DNA of 64,000 bases from NCBI GenBank assembly GCA_002205965.3, contig NADL03000547.1, positions 62,001 through 126,000 on the forward strand, written 5' to 3'. Shown here piece after piece: positions 6,161 through 35,435 of the stretch. Both the position numbers and the translations under genes were made by a program. The notes under the pieces were generated by a model that saw only the letters and a list, made by a program, of their open reading frames with translations, searched no databases and was not told where the DNA came from. This stretch comes from Kappaphycus alvarezii. Its lineage: Eukaryota > Rhodophyta > Florideophyceae > Gigartinales > Solieriaceae. How positions within the stretch are numbered: the stretch's first letter is position 1; each line of letters opens with the position of its first letter.

Positions 6161-6365
6161 TGTCGCGCGACGGTCAGGGCCGCTAGTTGATTGGCCCGGT
6201 GTGCTCGTACAATAGTAGTGTACACTGTACTTGAACATTCATGAGTAGAAACCCCGGACCGGCCGCCCCTATAAGATGACGCGAGGGCTGCCGGAGTCTG
6301 GGGAGGTAGAGGTAGGTTCCGCTTGGCCGCAAAAAAGAAAAAGGACAGAGAAAACAAAACAAGCA
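6161..6365 (+). repeat. Ty3-A 5' LTR
   Basis: Starts TGTCGCGCGACGGTCAGGG and ends AAAACAAGCA. Matches 12986-13206 along its length. The segment CCCCTATAAGATG near 6267 could be its TATA box. Confidence 0.8.
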
Positions 6366-6370
6366 ATTCA

Positions 6371-8433: not shown

Positions 8434-9750
8434 GTGCTGGTGGTACATTCTTTCGAGTTAACGAACGAGACGCCGATACATTCGAAGGCCTACCGAATGC
8501 TGCCGAGGCAAAACGAAGTCGTAAAGAAAGAAGTGAAGGAATTATCGGAAGCTGGAATCATTACGCCGCCAAGGTCCGCCTGGTCCTTTCCGGTGGTGAT
8601 AGCCACGAAAAAAGACGGAACGCCCTGGTTCTGCGTCGATTACCGTCAGTTGAACAGGGTGATGAAGCCAGACCGCTGGCCACTACCGAAAATAAAAGAA
8701 ATCTTCGACGAAATCTCTGGCGCAGAGTTCTTCACAACATTGGAACTTTACACAGGGTACTGGAAGTTTAGAATGCCTGAGGCTTGCAAGGAAAAGACGA
8801 CGTTTATCTCTCGATATAGAACGTACAAGTTCGAGATAATGCCGTTTGGACTCATGAATGCCCGAGCAACTTTTCGAAGGATAATGGATGATGTCCTTCG
8901 CGGGTTGCCGTTCGCTATGGTTCACGTGGACGACGTTTTTATCTTCTCGAAGACGTTGGAGGAACACATAGGCCATTGCAAGGAGGTGTTTAGCAGGATC
9001 AAAGGATCGAAACTCTAGTTGAAGGTTACCAAGAGCAGCTTTGCTCAGTCAGAAGTGAAGTCGCTTGGTCACATCTTTATTTCAAGTGGTTCGAAGGTGG
9101 ATCCCGACAAGACCGAAGATATTGTAGAAGCTCCGGTGCCGGAAAACGTGACCGAACTCAGGATTTTTCTGAGACTCTCAGGGTACTACCGACGGGTCAT
9201 AAGGGGGTTTTCTGACAGCTCAGCAGTATTGCACGCTGCAACGTCGGTGAAGAATGCTTTCGAGTGGACTCTGGAGATGCAAGAGGACTTCGAATACTTG
9301 AAGGAGAAACTGAATACGCTTAAAGTATTGGCGTTTTCAGATTTCAATTCTACGTTCTTGGTGAAAATAGAGGCCTCTTCGGCAGCCCCTGGGGTTGTTC
9401 TCTCGCAGAAGAAAGAAGACTGGAAAATACATCCTATTTAGTTCGCTTCTCGAACGGTCACGGACCAGGAGCGCCGCTACTCCACGAGCGAACGAGAAGC
9501 ACTCGCCGTGGTTTTCTCTCTTAAGAAGTTTCGAGTTTACCTCCTGTCTAAAACGTCCTTCTTTGTCTAAACGGATCATCAAGTCCTTCAAACCGCGTTC
9601 AAGAAGTAAGATATTCAGGGGCGGCTGGCAAGGAGGATGTATTTGATGGCAGAATACGACTTCGAGATCAAGTATCGTCCGGGACTGACGAATGGGGCGG
9701 CCAATTATCTCCTGCAAAGACTTAAAGAGAAGGAAGAAAAGGAGAAATAA
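8434..9750 (+). pseudogene. pol: Ty3-A reverse transcriptase and RNase H
   Basis: The frame 8434-9018 carries the Ty3-type reverse transcriptase: AGIITPPRSAWSFPVVIATK, FCVDYRQLNRVMKPDRWPLP, FEIMPFGLMNARATFRRIMDD and the catalytic box HVDDVFIFS (usually YVDD or YIDD). A TAG at 9016-9018 separates it in frame from 9019-9441, with the SGYYRRVIRGFSD connection and the start of RNase H. The RNase H (to about 9750) retains STSEREALAVVFSLKKFRVYLLS and YDFEIKYRPGLTNGAANYL, broken by stops and a frameshift. Confidence 0.85.
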
Positions 9751-9889: not shown

Positions 9890-11076
9890 GCTGTCAGACG
9901 GAGCGCAAAAAGTTTCCTGCTCTGGAATGACACCCTCTTTCGTCGTGAGAAGGACGGGCTCCGTGTCGTGCCTCCGACCGGTCAACGCCGGAGATAATGG
10001 CCACTTTACATGGTGATATTGGCCACTGGGTCGTCATTTCGACAAGAAACTTCGTAAGGGACCGATTCTGGTGGCCTGGGGTGTACCGTGATGTCACCGA
10101 GTATGTACAGGGTTGTGATGGGTGCCAGCATGCGAGAAGGTTGCAGACGTATTACTCGAGTTTGGGAGCTCCCGTTAGTGGGCTCTTTGAGACCTTCTTC
10201 GATGGATTTTGCTGGAACATTCAAGCCTTCGAAGAATGGAAAAAGATTTATTCTGATCGCTGTGGAACATATGACAGGATGGCCCATAGCGTGGGCCACG
10301 ACGGATTCTACGGCCGATACGTTGAAGATGTTTATCGAGGAAGAGATGATATCACCGTTCGGACCGCCGAAGAGAATCTTCTCTGACAACGCAACTGCTT
10401 TTATGGCGGGATCGGTACAAGATTAAATGAAAGAGAAGAGAGCCAAGTGGAAGGCGGTGCTTGCTTACGCACCGATGGCACACGGTCCCGCGGAGCGGAT
10501 GGTGGGAACTATCAAGCACGCGCTCAAAAGGTCGATCGCCCGTGGTGGGGCAGACTGGGCGGAAGCCCTCCTCAAAGTCTTATATGGTTACCGCAGACGC
10601 GACAGAAGCGACGCCCCTTCCCCTTTTCGACTGATGTACGGAATAAATCCGAGAATGCTGGCCAGTGATTCGGTCGCATTTCTCAGTGGCGCCGGCCCTC
10701 ATTATCGGCTTATAGAGACCTTAGCCGATTCGTTAATGCGGGCTGGCGTGGTTGTAAAGGCTATAAAACCCCGCAAGGCTAAAGGAAAAGTCAGGTAGTT
10801 CGAAGTTTGAGATGAATTATTGGTAGCACACGGTGCGGCCTTCAATTAAGGGCGCAGCTGGCCAGCCTTCGACTCGTGTTTCTATGGGCCATGCAAAGTG
10901 ACGAAGTCGAACCACCCTCGCTACGAGTTACTTTCCTCCATCTGCCGCGTTACGAGGAAGGCAATTCACGCGCGCCGGATAGTCCCGTATCAGAAGAGAT
11001 CGACCCTTTTATTCAACTAGAGAAGAGCAAAAGGCGAGTAAACAAGAGAAGATTAGCCAGGAATCGAGTAGATTGA
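9890..11076 (+). pseudogene. pol: Ty3-A integrase and C-terminal tail
   Basis: The zinc-binding HHCC part is visible at 9997-10140 (HGDIGHW, then CDGCQ). The catalytic core is split over frames: FAGTFKPSKNGKRFILIAVEH, FGPPKRIFSDNATAF, and from 10427 YAPMAHGPAERMVGTIK with the catalytic Glu, ending at 10798. A charged tail (10876-11076) ends in KSKRRVNKRRLARNRVD. It stops 131 bp before the end of the convergent antisense gene. Confidence 0.75.
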
Positions 11077-11207: not shown

Positions 11208-12438
11208 TCAATAATCCTTTTCTCGCGCTTCCGGACTGATAAGGAGTTGCAACCAGGACGCCTCTTCTAGCGCTTTCCTGCAGTCGCTAGCGCCGCCTCC
11301 CGGACCTCTAGGACGGATTAATGTAGAATAATCACCGACGCATTCACGGAGAGCTTGAGAGGAGAGTTCTAAGGCAAAGCGCTTACACGGATCCCATATC
11401 TGGCCCGTCTCGGTGTTCATAGCGACGCAGTGATGGACACCATGGGAACCCGGGATCGTCACGACGTAGACCACACTAGGAAGAGCCAAAGTCTCTAGAT
11501 ACCCGGATTGAGACTGAAGATTTAATGGAGAATGAACGAGCGGGGACTCTCATGCTTCTGGGCGTCTCTCAAGCTCCTGATGCGACCCCGACGCGTGACG
11601 ACGGCCTTCAAAGCTCTATTGTTACCCTCATAGTACTCCAACCACTCTAAAGCGACGGAAGGAACACCAAACTGCCAGATTTCGTTGGAGATTGAAAAAC
11701 CGATGCATACTTCGGTTTCGTCACGGAATACCATATCAGGGCGAGGAGAGGTCAAGAGAAAATTAGGGGAAGCTTGTGGCTCCCTGTAACGAACTGATGA
11801 CAACTGGAGACGACGACCAGGATGAAGTTGGCACCACTTGTGGACGCTCGACATAGCACTGAGTCGGCCTTCGCACCCCAAAGAGAACCGGACCTAACGA
11901 GAGATGGAGTGACCGTCTGGCTCTTGTGGCCCGGAAAACGCGAGAGTGTAGAGCAACACCGAGTGCTACTCTCCCGCTGCCGTGTAAACGGCTCGATAAG
12001 TCTGGTTGTCGTCGTCCTAGCGGACCATGCTGATAATCCAATCCCTTCTCGCACCCCATCGTACACACGCCGATCCTGCTGGGATTCCGTGAGACCGAGT
12101 TGAAAAGCATCCTCCCGAGTGAATTCGTCACCAACGCAGTGAGTCACGTAATCTGTGATGTGGGCCCCGAAGAGATCGAGGAACTCCTGACGAGAGACGC
12201 GGTACAGATGCATTCCACAGGAGTCAGTTTGGATGACGAACAGGTTTCGCTCCTCCCTGACGATGAAAAGCACCCTTTTGATGTCAGAACGCTCCGATAA
12301 CAACCGCATCAAATTCGCCCTTGCCACCGGAGGAGGTCCCTTTGCGCCGCGGGCGACTCGCGCAGCCTTAGTGGCGATTTTCTTGCAGGGTGCACGGTCA
12401 CTAGTTCTCAAACGAGCAAGCTGCTTCGTTCGAGCCAT
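11208..12438 (-). pseudogene. Antisense accessory gene of Ty3-A: histone H3 tail mimic plus papain-like peptidase (broken)
   Basis: The start ATG at 12436-12438 gives MARTKQLARLRTSDRAPCKK... . Compared with the histone H3 tail without gaps, residues 1-5, 7, 8, 11, 15, 16, 18 and 21-26 after Met are identical (17 of 26). Lys4, Lys18 and Lys23 are kept; Lys9 is Leu and Lys27 is Val. After Arg26 the H3 likeness ends, so this is not a histone gene. About 160 residues of unknown type follow (TDSCGMHLYRVSRQEFLDLF near 12220). Near 11880 the frame shifts, and HKWCQLHP leads to RDETEVCIGFSISNEI with Cys at 11705-11707. A second frameshift near 11525 leads to GSHGVHHCVAM (His 11430-11432) and GQIWDPC (Asp 11391-11393), ending at 11208. 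Cys at a helix start, then His, then Asp, fits a papain-like cysteine peptidase. The Ty3-B gene at 20163-20924 is homologous and keeps these residues. The gene converges with pol and lies within the LTRs. Confidence 0.75.
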
Positions 12439-12985: not shown

Positions 12986-13206
12986 TGTCGCGCGACGGTC
13001 AGGGTCGTTAGTTGATTACACTACTACTTTACGAGCCCGGTGTGCTCGTACAGTAGTAGTGTACACTGTACTTGCACATTCATGAGTAAAAAACCCGGAC
13101 CGGCCGCCCCTATAAGATGGTGCGAGGGCTGCCGGAGTCTGGGGGAGGAAGAGGTAGGTTCCGCTTGGCCGCAAAAAAGAAAAGGAAAGAGAAAACAAAA
13201 CAAGCA
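12986..13206 (+). repeat. Ty3-A 3' LTR
   Basis: Same sequence as 6161-6365, with an extra ACACTACTACTTTACGA-like insertion after GTTGATT and several substitutions. The LTRs have therefore diverged since insertion. Confidence 0.8.
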
Positions 13207-13343
13207 TTTCACTTCCCTTAACTGAAAGGGGGAAATTTTTGAGTTATTTTAATGCATGGAAGATGTGGTCTGTTAACTGAAAGTGATGCTACTATGTAAT
13301 ATGATTAGGAGTTGTACTTCTACGCACTGTCCCCTCGGATCCA

Positions 13344-14689: not shown

Positions 14690-15690
14690 TCCAAGACAAT
14701 GTTTTGATGGCCGGGAAGTCCAGTAAGGAGAAGTAATTATCTCTCCTTGGATACCTAGAAGGCCCTGCGTTCGAGTTCTACGAAGATTCCTTCGCAGCCC
14801 AAGGAGAGCCGATCAAAGATTCCAAGAACTACGCCGTTGTCAAGGAGAAATTCTTCGAAAATTTCGCCGAGGAAGAAGAGCCTCAAGGCATCATCCGTTA
14901 AGCACTGTAAATCAGCCTCGAAATTGAAGATATACCGAAATCTCTGAAGAAATCGGAGCGGTTGTACAAGAAGGCAGGTTTCGACAATATTGTAAGATTT
15001 GGATTACTAAGGACTGCTGCATGTCGAAATGAGAAGTTGCAGCAGTTCTTGTCGTTCCGGGGGCCGAAGAATTACGCAGATCTAGTGAAGGCTTAGAAGG
15101 GCTTTCACGCGAATCGAATTGCGTTTTCAGAATCCTCGCCTCAAGTTATGAAAGTACCGCCAGCAAAGCTCTTGGTTCGTTCTGATGCTCGCTCACTCAA
15201 AGAACATCGAGGATTCGAGGATAACGTGGATGCCCTTGCCGAAGACTTGTCTCGCCTTACCCTTCTCGTCAAGCAGAAGAAGGAAAATTCCTATACAGTC
15301 GCAGAACCGTCTTCGTCAGCTCAGAGGGGAAATTCTTCTAGATTGTGCTCTTACTGTCGCCAACTCGGTCATGGAGCATCTAGATGCGAGAAAAATACTC
15401 CCGAGATCATTGTTGCACCTTGTGCGGCCGATTAGGGCATTCCGAGGCTAAATGCTGGACTGCGGCAAGAATTAATGCTTCCGGTGGTTTGGAAGATCAA
15501 GAAAGAAAAGAAGAACCTCGAGCAGCGGATCAGGTCAACATCGTCCGTGAGAGTCATTCCGATGCCGATGAAGACATTGAAGAGATCGTTAACGCGAAGA
15601 AGAGAACTGCTGAAGGAGAAGCTTTGCCGAAACAACCTCGTCAAGAAAATCACGGGGGAATTCCGGTATCCCGCCTAGTGCATAATTCGC
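14690..15690 (+). pseudogene. gag: Ty3-B gag
   Basis: The capsid part (14750-15130) is broken by stops. The nucleocapsid part is clear. The frame 15148-15435 ends with CSYCRQLGHGASRC, and the overlapping frame from 15384 opens with CTLCGRLGHSEAKC. Both are intact C-x2-C-x4-H-x4-C zinc knuckles, separated by a frameshift near 15400. Then follows an acidic and basic linker. Confidence 0.75.
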
Positions 15691-15699
15691 AAGAATTAC

Positions 15700-16670
15700 A
15701 AATAATCCCTCCCGTTCCGCTGGCAGAAGAATTACGTGTTTCGGGCCAAAGGAGGAAGCAAAAGAAGAATAAAAAAGGAAGAAAAGGTTCAGAAAAGCTC
15801 CAAGAATACGTCGGAAAGTATGAGGTAGTCGCTGAGCTTGAAAATGTCAACTGCGGCCTTACTTTCGGTCAGCTTCTTCGAGGAGATGCTAACGGGACCG
15901 CAAAGGTAATGAGAAGGCTATTAGGAAAGAAGAGCATGCCTAGAATTACCGTCGTTGCTGATAAAGGGCAACGCTTGCTGCGAGTAGTGCAGCTCAAAGT
16001 TTATTGCCCAGAAGTATGGGCGCTTTTGGACTCTGGAGCCGTACCGGACGTGATGTCCGCGGATTTATCTCGACGCCTCTACGTGTTGCCGAACTAAATA
16101 TCGAAGAAAATCACCGTCGCGAACGGAGATAGCGCCTCCTGTGTCGGGTCGTTGCTCAAGGTTCCCACCACCTTTGGGAACCAAGCGGTCAAGCTGGACT
16201 ACCTGGTTGCGGAAAAGTCGCCATTTGATCTAATTATTGGTCTCCCAACTCTCTCTACCATGCGGGCAAATTTAGACTTCGGGACCCAAAGCGTTCGTAT
16301 ACCTATTGGCTTGGAAGGAGTGGTTCTGGCTTTGGAGCCCGATACAAAAGTCGCCGAGAAGAATTTGATGAGGGGTGAAGAGATCGTAACGACTAGTGAA
16401 GACTTCACCTCCGACTCTGATGCTGGTCCCGACTCTGCCGACACTTCGGAAGAAGAATTGGTACTGGCGATCCGTGAAAACATTTACGAGGGTCCCGGCA
16501 ACTCTGATAAAGAACTAGCCGACAAATATACCGCCGCTGTCGAAGAAGGGGGCGAAAAAAACGAGAAGGAGGAAATGAAAGGGGCACTTCGAGCCCGTCT
16601 TGCCCATCTTCCTGAAGCAACACAAGAAAGCAAAAATAGCTCGCTTTGTGACACTGGGATAGTCACATGA
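15700..16670 (+). pseudogene. Ty3-B linker and aspartic protease
   Basis: The linker KNKKGRKGSEKLQEYVGKYE and FGQLLRGDANG parallels Ty3-A and Ty3-C. The protease active site is ALLDSGAVPDVMS near 16025, with catalytic Asp kept. A TAA at 16095-16097 interrupts the frame, and the second lobe (PFDLIIGLPTLS) follows from 16152. An acidic linker ends at a TGA at 16668-16670. Confidence 0.75.
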
Positions 16671-16760
16671 ACGATAGAGGAGCCCCTCCCCGCATCCGTA
16701 CCGACGAAAAATGGATTCGAGCTGAAGGATGACACCGATATCTACCGTAGGGATCGCCAA

Positions 16761-18012
16761 ATGTCCCCGCGACACAACGAAATCTCTCGCAAGGAGATAT
16801 ACAACATCCTCGATGCAGGAATTATCACTCCAACCTCTTCAGCTTGGTCATTTCCTGTCGTAATTGTTACAAGGAAGGACGGAAAACCTCGCTTCTGTGT
16901 GTACTACCGTGCTCTGAACCGAAAAATGAAGGCTGACCGCTGGCCGTTGCCCAAAATCGAAGAAATATTCGATTACTTCAAGGTAAGCTCCGTCTTTAAA
17001 CCCCTCGACCTCTTCGCAAGGTATTGGCAGATCCGCGTGAGCGAAGAATGCAAAGAGATGACTACCTTCGTATGCCGCTTTGGCACATTCAAGTTCGAGG
17101 TGATGCCCTTTGGCGTGTTAAACGCGCCGTCTACGTTCCAGCGAATGATGGATTACATATTGAGAGATATACCATTCGCTCGAGTATATCTGGACGACGT
17201 TGTTGTGTTCTCCAACACAATCGAGGGGCATTTTATACACCTTCACATCGTCTTCGAAGCCATTGGAAAGGCCGATCACAAAGTGTGCCTTTGCGAGGCC
17301 TATTGTCAAGCTTCTCGGCCATTTAGTTGATAAAGAAGGAGTTCACGTCGATCAAGAGAAGAAAAGTGCCAAAAAAGAGGCACCAGTACCAACAAAAACG
17401 ACTGAAATGCGGAGTTTTCTCGGCTTAGCCGGCTATTATCGCCACTTTATCAAGAATTTCGCGGACATCTCTGCTGCTCTTCATGCCGCGTTTTCTGGGA
17501 ATAAGAATTTCAGCCGGACAGAAGAAATGAAGGAAGCGTTCGGGGTTCTAAAAGAGAAACTCACATCCCCGCCGGTGCTGGCCTTCTCCGACTTCGACGC
17601 GCCGTTCATCGTGAATACGGAAGCCTCAATCGTCGCCGTGGGAGCAATGCTTGCTCAGAAGAAAGAAAATGTAAAAGTACAACCCGTTTAATATGCAAGT
17701 CACACCATGAACTCCGGCGAGTGGAACTATTCCGCGTGCGAAAGGGAAGCTCTTGCAGTCATCTTCGCACTTAGGAAGTTCCGGGTGTATTTGCTTTCAA
17801 CGGAACCATTCAAACTCATAACAGACCATAAGTCATTTCATTACGCCTTTAAGAATAATGACGTACATGCCAGATTGGCACGATGGATAGACTTTCTAGC
17901 TAAATACGAGTTTGAGGTGGAATATCGTCCTGTCACAAGGAATGGAGCTGCCGACTATCTTTCACGCGTAATGCACGAAGGGCTTGGAGCCGCCCCAAAC
18001 GTAGACGAATGA
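16761..18012 (+). pseudogene. pol: Ty3-B reverse transcriptase and RNase H
   Basis: The frame 16761-17330 has AGIITPTSSAWSFPVVIVTR, RFCVYYRALNRKMKADRWPLP (Tyr for the usual catalytic Asp of CVDYR), FEVMPFGVLNAPSTFQRMMD and the intact catalytic box VYLDDVVVFS. A frameshift near 17300 moves to the frame 17200-17691 with LGHLVDKEG and FLGLAGYYRHFIKNFADIS. After a TAA, RNase H (17707-18012) has WNYSACEREALAVIFALRKF, ITDHKS and EYRPVTRNGAADYLSR. Confidence 0.88.
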
Positions 18013-18027
18013 GACCTTGTTGGTGCG

Positions 18028-19290
18028 GTGAACTCTGTTTGTTTGTCCGATATTCCCGCCATAGAACCATATTTGGTTGATTTTGCTCGCTATATCGAAG
18101 GAAAAGATATTCAAGAACAAGATCCGTCTAAGCGCCGCTCGGCAAAACACTTTATGGTGTGGGAACGAGAACTGCTGAGGCGTACGAAGAATGGCCTCCG
18201 CGCGATCCAGACAATCAAAGACAGGTCCGGGATTCTGAAGACATTCCACGACGAAGTTGGACACTGGGATAGTGAGACAACAATGAAATTCGCTTTCGAC
18301 CAATATCGGTGCCTCAAGTCCACTGGGACGTTCAAGATTACGTTAGGAGCTGTGAGGGATGTCAAAAGGCTAAGCCCTTGATCCCTTATCGAACTACGCT
18401 GAGCATTCCGCTCACTAATATCCTCGAAACTTACTCTATAGACTTCGCTGGACCCTTCCTCAGGTCGAAAGTGGGAAACAAATTTCTTCTTATCGCCGTC
18501 GAGCACCTAACGGGCTGGCCAATTGCCACCGCAACGGAGACGGCATCCGCAGAGGTCGTGAAAGCATTCGTTGAAAAGGAGATAATTTATCTTTTCGGTC
18601 CTCCCAAGACCGTCTTATCTGATAACGCTGGATGTTTTACCGCTGCTACCTTCGTATATTTCATGAAGAAGAATGTAGTCGAGTGGAGCACCGTCCTGGC
18701 CTACGCCCCGATGACAAACCGCCGAGCAGAAAGGATGGTGCGCACTATAAATAACGCACTAAAGAAGACGGTTACTGGACAAGGATCCGACTGGGAACAG
18801 TGGCTTCCCCAAGTTCTTTATGGCTACCACCGCCGCCGACTTGGAACAGGTGCCTAACCGTTCGAGCTTATGTTCGGAGAGGTACCGTGCATGGACCCAT
18901 CCGACTCCGCTTCATTGATACTCAATCCTTCAGAAGAGCATCGCCGGATAGGGATGCTGTCTACCTTGGCACTTCGCGCAGCTAGAGTCGATATTCAAAA
19001 GCAGCGCCTTAGTAGGGAAGTCGGGGCGGTACGAACCCAAAAGTTTAATACTGGAGACTGTGTTTTGGTTGCTCATGGAAAAGCCCTAACGTTCACGGTC
19101 AAGTGACTGGCAATCAAGTCCCGTTTCGTCGTACCGTGCCGAATTTGGAAAGCATCTCACCTGGTTACTGGCCAACTTCTTACGGAGGTAGAAATTCCCG
19201 AAAAGCTATCCATGCAAGTCGCCTGGTTCCCTACTCTTTGCGCTCGTTCTTCCTACAGTATTAATTCTCAAATCCGTCCTATAGTCGACG
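18028..19290 (+). pseudogene. pol: Ty3-B integrase and tail
   Basis: The frame 18028-18381 carries the N-terminal zinc region (HDEVGHWDSETTMKFAFDQ). The core follows at 18309-18857: YSIDFAGPFLRSKVGNKFLLI (first Asp), FGPPKTVLSDNAGCF (second Asp) and MTNRRAERMVRTINNALKK (Glu). The C-terminal part (18870-19290) is broken and has TGDCVLVAHGKALTFTVK-like sequence. Confidence 0.85.
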
Positions 19291-20162
19291 GCTGTTAGTT
19301 TTCTTATGTTTTTCCTCTCATTCTCGTCTTTGTTCTGTCAGTTATTCATTATCTGAGTACAATTCAAATTCACCATCACATTTAATCAAACTCTAGGAAA
19401 CATTTGCTAGAATATAGAAGATTTTGCGAAAGCAGAAGAAAAGGTGTTACTGCGACGAAAACGTTCAACGATTGGAGGGAACAACCCTCGAACGCATATC
19501 CCCAGAAGAAGAGGCTACCGGGGCCTTTGTACGGCGACGGTGACGTTTCTTCTTCGCGGGATCCGACTGCGTGTATGTAATCATTATATTACGAGGCGGA
19601 ACCTCTTGAACATCCAATGGAACTAGACAGCGCACATCGACGATTTTCTGTTGGCTGTGAACCCCGTGCTGTCACTGAAAACCAAAAGTGCAGGGGAGCA
19701 TGGGCTGTTTTGGAGGGTGCCGTTTGGAAATCGCATATGCGCCTCTCCTCAAACTCAACGTGAAACGGGCTTATGATTGGCTACTGCAAATGGTCATATG
19801 CAAAGTGGTGGCGGTTACAGTAGTTGCGTGTATACATGTCGTTGCATGTGTAAGAGTTGTGTTGTGAATATCGGGACGTGTAGTGATTCTGTGGTTACGT
19901 GCAGTTTGTGAGTTAGTGCATACACATGATGACGTGATTTAGTGTTGTGCACTGTTGTGCACTGTTAGTTGTAAGCTGGCATGAGCCTGTGCCAGTGTTA
20001 CTATGTCATGTCTTGTGATGATTGGTAGTATTGAGTGTCCCGCTCAGATGGCTATGGTTTAGTTAGAGTAAGAGTTGAGTGCGAGTGTGGCGAAATAGTT
20101 CTATATAAGTTGCGACTTGAGCACCTCCAAGTAAAATCTGGCCAGAGCTGGCGAACTTCCTT
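19291..20162. other. Ty3-B region between pol and the antisense gene
   Basis: No convincing gene. A short basic frame at 19444-19626 may be a remnant of the pol tail. GTTGTGCACT is repeated around 19945-19965. TTCTATATAAGTT at about 20099 resembles a TATA box on the plus strand. Confidence 0.4.
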
Positions 20163-20924
20163 TCATTCCCCCACCTTCCTTATCCAACCTTCCCTTTCAG
20201 CTTCAATCTCTATCATTTTCAAATACTCGTCCGGGCCTCCCTCTCCACAACATATTTTCAAAGATGCTTCGGAGAATCGCAATGCGTACTTCTCAGCGCA
20301 GTCATGAGTAAGAATTGGGTCTTCTCGGGCGTCAAGACAAATCGAATGCTGCGATCCGAGCCGCCCGATAAGCGACGCAACGTAAATTCCACGAACAGCA
20401 GAACCGAGCAGACTGTGAACACATGCAGCGTTGATCTAAGATTCTACTGCTCGGCGAAGGCCACTTTTGGTTCTTCCAGCTGACCCATGTCCCGGCCTAA
20501 TGTGGCAAAGGACCGCAAGATCGGGGTAAACTTTATGCAATCCCTTCTGAACGTTAGCGAAGGAAAGACAACGAGGACGATAGCCGAGTTGTTCTAGGGA
20601 ATCATGATCTCAAGCGTAGTCTCTTTTCCAGTAGATGTCCGCGGGACCGGGCCCGAAGATGGGCGATATCTCGCTGGCCACTGCAGCTGGCATACACTGC
20701 CCCTCGAAGTCTCGAAAACGCACACGATGGCTGCGGAGAATATGCGGAGGAAACAGAGAAGATGAAACAAGCGACGTAGGGAACAGAACGCAGTAATGTT
20801 TATTCGGGTGCTTTTGGCACCACCTGTCCATCTGCAAGGGGACTCCTACGCTCGAGCTGAGGTGCCTACCAGAGGCATCATTCACGATGAGACTATTTTC
20901 CCTCTCCTCTCTGGTCTTCGCCAT
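20163..20924 (-). pseudogene. Antisense accessory gene of Ty3-B: papain-like peptidase homologue
   Basis: The start ATG at 20922-20924 (MAKTREERENSLIV) opens a single frame to the stop at 20163-20165, broken only by TGA at 20610-20612 and TAG at 20436-20438, with no frameshift. It matches the C-terminal half of the Ty3-A antisense gene: RWCQKHP against KWCQLHP; RFRDFEGQCMPAAVASEI against VFRDETEVCIGFSISNEI (Cys77); GSQHSICLD against GVHHCVAM (His193); THDCAEKYALRFSEASLKIC against WDPCKRFALELSSQALREC (Asp208). The conserved Cys at a helix start, then His and Asp, fits a papain-like peptidase. The H3-like tail and the ~160-residue middle region of Ty3-A are missing, so only 34 residues precede RWCQKHP. 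Function in the element is unknown. Confidence 0.72.
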
Positions 20925-21211
20925 CTTAATGGTCCGCGGAGGGATTTGTGGATGGACCCTTGCTCGTATTAACACGAATGGAGCAGTCCCGAAGGCTTTA
21001 GCTGCCCTGAATCAACGTGTTTTCAGAGCGAGGACGGCACCGCATGGAGAGGGAGAATGGAATGATTGATCGCGGCGGTTGAGAATGTTGGAGTTGAGGT
21101 GAAGCGTCGCGAATTTTGGAACGTGAGGGTAGAGGGGGGGCAGTGAGTTCACGAGTCACCCCCAGGTTCTCGCTATATGGCGCGCCGGGCTTCCATCTGG
21201 GGCCGGGGTGG
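20925..21211. other. Spacer before Ty3-B 3' LTR
   Basis: Upstream region of the antisense gene. GGGTAGAGGGGGGGCAG at about 21126 is purine-rich and could be the polypurine tract, although it lies some 70 bases from the LTR. Confidence 0.4.
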
Positions 21212-34109: not shown

Positions 34110-35435
34110 CCCTCAGACATTTCCATTCCACTTCCCGCATTATGCAGCCCTAATTATTGCATCTCTCGCCTCTAGTCAAGCTGCAAGATCTCTTCTTCTA
34201 CTTTCTGATGTTGCAGTTGAATGGCAAGCCGAAGTTCAGGTATATGCTTCCTCTTCTGAAGATGGAGATTTTTCTGATGAAGACTCAGATAGTGATGCCC
34301 CATCTTTGACCAGTTCTACAACAGTGGTGGTTCTCAGTCAATTGTTCAAATGATCAACTTCGATCCCGCTCAATACACGAATATCTGGCAGACTTTCGAG
34401 AAATTCATCAAGGAACGGTACAATAACGGTCGGGGTCGCAAGTGTGCTCAAACAGCCAAAGATGTTTTGTTCATGACTCTGGCTGTTCTAAAGCACGGTG
34501 AGCAGTGGGACTTCCTTGCAAAGATGTTTGGCATGAAGGGACCCTCCTTCGAGCGAATGATCATGCGGTTCATTGATATAATTTCTGATGCCATGTATGA
34601 ACACTTTGTCGAGTATCAGGCAAAGACGTGGACGATGACTGAAATGTTTAGGAAGAATCCGTTGTTTCAAAATAATCCGATGGCTCGCTACGCAACCGAT
34701 GTGACATTCCAGCCAAGCTTTCGTCCGAGTGGGAGTATGGAAGAAGGCAAACTTTATTTCAGTGTAAAGCAGAAGCTCTATGGTTACAAGACAGAAGTAT
34801 CCGTGTTGCCATGTGGCTTTGCAATTGGATGCAGTGCATGCAGTGCACATGAGCCGAGGTCCGTTTCTGATCTCACCTTGTTCTAATCTATGAATTTGTT
34901 TCATCAAGAGCAGCTGAAGAAACAAGATGGAGAGCAGTAGGCTATTGAAGATGTAGGACCTTTGCATGAAGATTTTCCCGCTTCATAGGTATTGGTAACA
35001 GACAAGGGATACTGTGGCGCCCGTGAATTCTGTCGAGTAATTAATCCCAAGAAGAAGACGGTGAATAGAGCCCTAACACACCCAGAAATGGTTTTCAATC
35101 GTCACATTTCAAGCGATCGCATTATTGTCGAGAATTTCTTTGGAAGAATGAGCGGCTTGTGGACTAAGATTTCGTCCAAATGGAGGTGGGCAGAATCTTC
35201 GTACGTCAATATATTTAGGATTTGTGTTGATCCGACGAACTTTCATATTTATCACAACCCGTTCCGTGCAGAAGACAGCATACTATTCAAGAAAATGAAG
35301 AATAGGTGGTACCACATCGGCAATAGTCAAATTGAAAAGCGTCGACAGATTCAAAAGAAGTACAGGGAGAAGCGTCGTCGCCGGGTTGAAATGCAATTTC
35401 GCCGGGCATTCCTCTCTGAAACGGAAGATGATTAG
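34110..35435 (+). pseudogene. DDE_4 family (Harbinger-like) transposase
   Basis: The N-terminal part (34110-34320) has an acidic segment (SSSEDGDFSDEDSDSD). A frameshift near 34310 leads to the frame from 34350. The catalytic residues fit the DDE_4 superfamily: YATDVTFQPSFRPSG (Asp), VLVTDKGYCGAREF (Asp), RIIVENFFGRMSGLW (Glu). The basic C terminus (EKRRQIQKKYREKRRRR) ends at 35435. Three in-frame stops lie between the first and second Asp regions (34884-34886, 34938-34940, 34986-34988). It is otherwise continuous, about 440 codons, so it decayed recently by point mutation. The transposon ends are not clear. Confidence 0.8.

Follow-up and report, generated by a model that had tools for sequence, protein, structure and literature searches.

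H3-like antisense gene in a Ty3 element

The window analyzed here is a 64,000-nucleotide stretch of the genome of the red alga Kappaphycus alvarezii (GenBank assembly GCA_002205965.3, contig NADL03000547.1, positions 62,001 to 126,000; positions below are those of the window). It contains a Ty3 long terminal repeat (LTR) retrotransposon with an antisense gene whose product begins like the tail of histone H3. The protein encoded on the minus strand from position 12438 begins MARTKQLARLRTSDRAPCKKIATKAARVAR (fuller N-terminal sequence, MARTKQLARLRTSDRAPCKKIATKAARVARGAKG), and the sequence directly past the initiator Met (12436-12438) is ARTKQLARLRTSDRAPCKKIATKAARVARGAKG. Across residues 1 to 26 past this Met (12358-12435, minus strand), 17 of 26 residues are identical to histone H3 in an ungapped alignment, including Lys4, Lys18, Lys23, and the ATKAAR block. 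This reproduces the match that a preliminary description, made from the sequence alone, had reported from the ARTKQ start onward.

The H3-tail score of the window equals 101, in contrast to a best score of 42 among 20 shuffled windows read in three frames each. Together with the many genomic copies described below, this rules out a chance match. When sequences of solved structures were queried with the family profile, 138 matches were obtained at E values up to 10 (best E value, 3e-10, via the tail columns), and all of the best 60 of these 138 were histone H3. Similarity to H3 stops near residue 28, and no Pfam histone match was found in the window gene or in its family, in agreement with the earlier statement that the remainder of the protein is not histone-like.

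The host element is bounded by a 5' LTR (6161-6370) and a 3' LTR (12986-13211) on the plus strand, both of the form TG...CA, which align with 197 of 227 columns identical and 18 gap columns. The near-repeats CTTCA/CTTCC lie outside the LTRs. Between them, the plus strand encodes a reverse transcriptase piece of pol (8434-9018; Pfam RVT_1, E value of 1.5e-16), an RNase H piece (9019-9441; RT_RNaseH_2, E value of 7.3e-11), and an integrase core piece (10088-10426; rve, E value of 8.8e-8). A probable integrase continuation follows (10427-10798), which has no Pfam match of its own and served as a search query. The LTRs and the expected order of reverse transcriptase, RNase H, and integrase identify the element as a Ty3 LTR retrotransposon. 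LTR and Pfam mapping thus bears out the position first assigned to the antisense gene, between pol and the 3' LTR, and places it, more precisely, downstream of integrase and ahead of the 3' LTR, antisense to pol.

The gene had been drawn as a single frame over 11208-12438, which needs correction, as it occupies three minus-strand frames. The first frame (11755-12438) encodes the tail and the start of the body, runs out of frame past approximately residue 132 to 160, and ends at a stop at 11752. The homologous remainder extends to approximately 11211 in two other frames, as a middle piece (11525-11893; profile A2, E value of 2.4e-48 over 1339 fragments) and a C-terminal piece (11211-11549; profile A4, E value of 5.2e-27). 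Given these frame changes and several stops, the window copy is a broken relic.

Copies and relatives of the gene

The genome (336 Mb, 884 contigs) yielded at least 154 matches to the window protein, at least 153 to a second-subfamily protein, and at least 119 to a fourth-subfamily protein; these lists overlap, and some copies are counted in pieces. A total of 81 tails were located, divided over subfamilies A (39), B (18), C (14), and D (9), with one unclear, and a Met precedes the tail in 62 of them. The longest open copy among those translated, L013, has 475 residues. Since many other copies begin with the H3-like sequence, the start is neither peculiar to the window copy nor a one-off fusion to a histone fragment. 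Three intact H3 genes of the host have the canonical tail. Two further H3-like loci, L044 and L045, have a canonical start, and their frames depart from H3 past approximately 17 and 26 residues; they may represent pseudogenes, introns, or sequence errors.

The association with Ty3 elements recurs across the genome. In 14 of 20 larger loci, DNA similarity to the window element extends over pol as well as the antisense gene, and the remaining six have lost pol or are too diverged. tblastn results for 11 of these 20 loci place the gene on the strand opposite to an adjoining integrase in nine (subfamilies A, B, and C), with no integrase found beside the gene in two. Conversely, 46 of the best 150 integrase matches have a gene match 0.5 to 2.1 kb downstream, antisense in all 46, with none on the same strand and none upstream. 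These 46 include D copies, e.g., on contigs C458 and C685, and the other 104 have no gene match among the matches listed. Ty3 integrase matches, obtained with a second element described below, also form blocks in which the scores are identical and the open frames long, and these blocks resemble recent insertions. At L024 (4038-6902), direct repeats spaced at approximately 2.65 kb flank a C-type gene, and the integrase end is the only one of the pol pieces searched for that lies between them; this locus is perhaps a shortened, non-autonomous element.

When queried with the H3 tail, the genome yielded 135 matches, five of them at H3 genes. Among the other 130, 20 new matches (L094 to L113, 150 bases each) were examined. 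They comprise one A tail, one B tail, and five further types, namely, E (six copies; MAHTKQTARRSTGGRAPRLELACKAARKR), F (four copies; MARTKQTANKSTGGKAPRDQLA), G (four copies), H (two copies; MARTKQTARRSTGGKAPSK.LATKATRKA, with a stop in the copy given here), and I (two copies; MALTKQTARRSVGGIVPRKELAEKAARSE). With 96 of 150 integrase matches of a second Ty3 element used, tail matches lie downstream and antisense in 22 cases and upstream in none, and one same-strand tail match lies 3.9 kb from a second-type integrase. The 22 include four E copies and three G copies, so both types adjoin the second Ty3 integrase.

This second Ty3 element is also present in the window (15384-21011), where it carries a broken, related antisense gene (20166-20924, minus strand) with an MAKT start at 20924. 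Over the same 1339 fragments, its piece at 20166-20435 matches profiles A2 (E value of 5.7e-6) and A4 (E value of 3.8e-7), and the piece at 20613-21011 matches profile A2 weakly (E value of 0.0045). We had considered types E to I to have unrelated bodies, an assignment now corrected for this G-like relic, whose C-terminal piece is homologous. For type E, a single 76-residue body piece gave no profile match.

The body of the family proteins has no credible match in Pfam or NCBIfam, and its C-terminal part matched no solved structure below an E value of 0.26. By eye, the motifs CIGASIAN, GSxGVNHCV, and LLDPSE resemble the Cys-His-Asp arrangement of a cysteine peptidase. This triad-like set is a lead for a body that would be a papain-like peptidase, with the tail as a substrate-like or self-inhibitory segment, for example, in the clipping of H3 tails. 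As no supporting profile was found in Pfam, NCBIfam, or solved structures, we consider such an activity very unlikely.

A homologue search with a single sequence query gave none, while an alignment-based profile search of 5.8 billion proteins retrieved three relatives. P0004 (304 amino acids, on a 12.9-kb ENA contig; E value of 8e-42) begins MARTRQTEQKSTVGEHPRKQLALKSARVTR, keeps the H3-like tail, and is approximately 30% identical to L046. P0005 is an A-like fragment with the tail, and P0006 has no recognizable tail; the three may or may not belong to other species. No relative of P0005 was found on viral contigs. Elsewhere in the window, a transposase-like open reading frame (ORF; 34350-34886, plus strand) has 23 relatives, several with PF13359, the one named being from the red alga Gracilariopsis chorda. 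This relative and three phycobilisome-profile matches both point to a red-algal host.

Tail constraint and loss of lysines

The tails of the A to D lead copies are identical to H3 at 19 to 21 of 26 residues, and their bodies are 30 to 44% identical between subfamilies. Between L007 (lead copy of A) and L027 (lead copy of B), tail identity is 88%, with proportions of nonsynonymous (pN) and synonymous (pS) differences of 0.10 and 0.73, respectively. Their bodies are 39% identical (pN of 0.49, pS of 0.94), with synonymous sites near saturation, and the reverse transcriptases of A and B are 54 to 57% identical. The C copy L024 shares 85% of its tail and 36% of its body with A, and 77% and 35% with B. 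A second C copy, L052, gives 62 to 73% for tails and 30 to 32% for bodies. In 26-residue sliding windows, the tail exceeds the body mean in all five pairs compared and surpasses the best body window in A/B (20 versus 14 identities) and P0004/D (17 versus 11).

These figures bear on whether the H3 likeness is simply a captured fragment that hitch-hikes without function. The broken state of the window copy and most others would agree with this. However, at such synonymous divergence the A, B, and C lead tails remain 62 to 88% identical, in contrast to 30 to 39% for their bodies, and the H3 skeleton is retained in 11 tail types, making this the least probable explanation we considered. The tails of A and D are 54 to 62% identical to each other and 73 to 81% identical to H3, closer to H3 than to each other, as expected with an H3-like ancestor in which different residues changed.

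Seven tail residues are invariant across the 11 tail types (A1, T3, Q5, S10, G13, P16, and R26). The lysines are less stable, as K4 is kept in seven types, K9 in five, K14 in four, K18 in six, K23 in 10, and K27 in three. At the six Lys positions, the H3 residue is retained in an average of 5.8 of 11 types, versus 9.1 of 11 elsewhere in the tail (permutation fraction, 0.007), in a statistic that counts related, non-independent tail types. Positions 19 and 22, which are not lysines, are as variable as the Lys positions.

Within subfamilies A to D, 74 of the 81 tails were scored, leaving out seven low-scoring rows. R2 is kept in 60, K4 in 61, K9 in seven, K14 in 14, K18 in 44, K23 in 68, R26 in 66, and K27 in none. 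The preliminary description had left room for simple decay behind the changes at Lys9 and Lys27. That cause is ruled out, since the replacements are common to many copies (Lys9 in 67 of 74 tails, Lys27 in all 74) and are thus subfamily traits rather than decay of the window copy.

The pattern of kept lysines leads to the main sober rival, in which the tail would be a nuclear-import signal borrowed for the body and read by a Kap123-like importin. Yeast Kap123 grips H3 residues 12 to 17 and 21 to 26 through Lys14 and Lys23, and a K14R change alters import only slightly, according to the structural report (PMC5677370). K23 is kept in most tails, as noted, and 60 of 74 have K or R at position 14. 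However, A1, T3, and Q5 are invariant and yet have no contact in the Kap123 structure, as far as that report describes it. In all eight scored D tails, position 14 is occupied by A or T, and the Kap123 consensus of spaced lysines at 14 and 23 is not found, with K23 in 68 of 74 tails and K14 in only 14. Overall, we regard import as unlikely to be the explanation, if a serious one.

Alternatively, the tail could be a docking module that ties the element complex to chromatin factors, for integration-site choice or for an environment of active transcription. Its best-kept end, ARTKQ, includes the region of K4, a residue present in 61 of 74 tails, and integrase and antisense gene adjoin in the same element, both of which would suit docking. 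In subfamily D, however, position 4 is R, Q, or L in all eight scored tails, and docking seems improbable to us.

Position 27 is V in 48 of the 74 tails, M in 12, I in seven, A in three, F in three, and T in one. Met27 characterizes subfamily B (12 of 14 scored tails), and Val or Ile is found in most A, C, and D tails. A rule that position 27 is always hydrophobic holds for 73 of the 74 tails and for P0004 and is broken by types E to I. Such residues could make the tail a trap for SET enzymes like the H3K27M oncohistone, in which the hydrophobic residue past Arg26 would jam Polycomb repressive complex 2 (PRC2) and a hydrophobic residue 9 in A to C would jam an H3K9 enzyme. In favor of this are the V, M, I, A, or F at position 27 in 73 of 74 tails behind an Arg26 in 66 of 74, the fit of subfamily B, the best among the subfamilies, the precedent of EZHIP (PMC12713659), and the PRC2 signatures in the host genome (four VEFS box matches and two CXC matches). 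However, 55 of the 74 tails have Val or Ile at this position, branched residues that fit poorly with PMC4853476. In addition, types E, G, and H have K27, F has R, and I has S. This failure of the rule in types E to I lowers the standing of a K27M-like trap, to which we assign a small probability.

Possible role of the H3-like tail

Histone H3-tail mimicry is well supported by the sequences, in that the likeness to the H3 tail is above chance and retained in relatives. The simplest origin of the tail would be residues 1 to 26 of histone H3; its host target we infer. For the antisense accessory gene of this Ty3 group, we favor, tentatively and with slightly less than even confidence, the reading that its product is a captured and maintained H3-tail mimic that engages host proteins that bind the H3 tail, as an anti-silencing decoy. 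Once Met is removed, the protein would expose a free, H3-like N terminus inside the nucleus, host H3-tail-binding proteins would bind it, and the mimic, acting as a decoy, would weaken silencing of the element. The kept tail skeleton and the lost lysines suggest a protein that would be bound as H3 and yet not be modified as H3. The PRC2 signatures of the host, noted above, are in favor of this reading, as is the finding that H3K27me3 is present on half of the repeats of the red alga C. merolae (PMC5405695). Repeat silencing has also been suggested as an ancestral function of PRC2 (PMC8788455).

Several observations weigh against the decoy reading. Most copies translated are decayed, and the main function may reside in the body. 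The tail/body contrast is far weaker for A versus D, and some 26-residue body window beats the tail in three of the five pairs (A/D, 16 versus 14 identities; B/D, 17 versus 15; P0004/A, 13 versus 12), so that just some of the pairs clearly show strong relative constraint on the tail. The lysine statistic is affected by the relatedness of the tail types. Finally, the replacement of Lys9 and Lys27 stated in the preliminary description stands for most A to D tails but is not universal, as subfamily D keeps Lys9 in seven of eight scored tails and types E, G, and H keep Lys27.

A more specific form of the decoy reading, which we consider doubtful, is that Ty3 elements, probably red-algal ones, possess a dedicated anti-silencing gene for a largely unmodifiable H3 tail, a transposon-encoded counterpart of an oncohistone. 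PRC2 and further enzymes and readers of the H3 tail would bind it as they bind H3 but could not mark it. If so, the loss of different marked lysines in different subfamilies would be expected from a race against different silencing enzymes.

A few viral and host proteins are known histone mimics. Influenza NS1, a viral histone mimic, reportedly has a short C-terminal histone-tail-like motif. Such viral mimics share with this family a histone-tail-like motif in a parasite protein, which here comprises approximately 26 N-terminal residues in a transposon. The family resembles histone H3 itself in residues 1 to 26, which begin right past Met, and differs from it in the lack of a histone fold beyond approximately residue 28 and the replacement of many modifiable lysines. 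No transposon-encoded H3-tail mimic was found in print in the open-licence literature.

The nearest known systems appear to be EZHIP in function and the antisense ORFs of plant Retand elements in layout. Within an H3-like stretch, EZHIP/CATACOMB and the H3K27M oncohistone share with this family an Arg26 that precedes a residue other than lysine, which in subfamily B is Met. However, EZHIP is a mammalian host gene that mimics a few residues near its C terminus (PMC12713659), whereas the copy described here spans the entire N-terminal tail, stands at the N terminus, and is encoded by a retrotransposon, and PRC2 inhibition is putative. Retand elements are likewise Ty3/Gypsy elements with an antisense accessory ORF between pol and the 3' LTR, the arrangement found here. 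Their ORFs have a TRP28 domain, with no H3 tail in the abstract and outline of their description (PMC11963269); the body here has no Pfam match.

A transposon gene that keeps an H3 tail over near-saturating synonymous divergence would record how transposons and chromatin silencing conflict. The loss of lysines, which differs by subfamily, suggests which host enzymes are engaged, and the family bears on how repeats may escape Polycomb-type silencing in algae.
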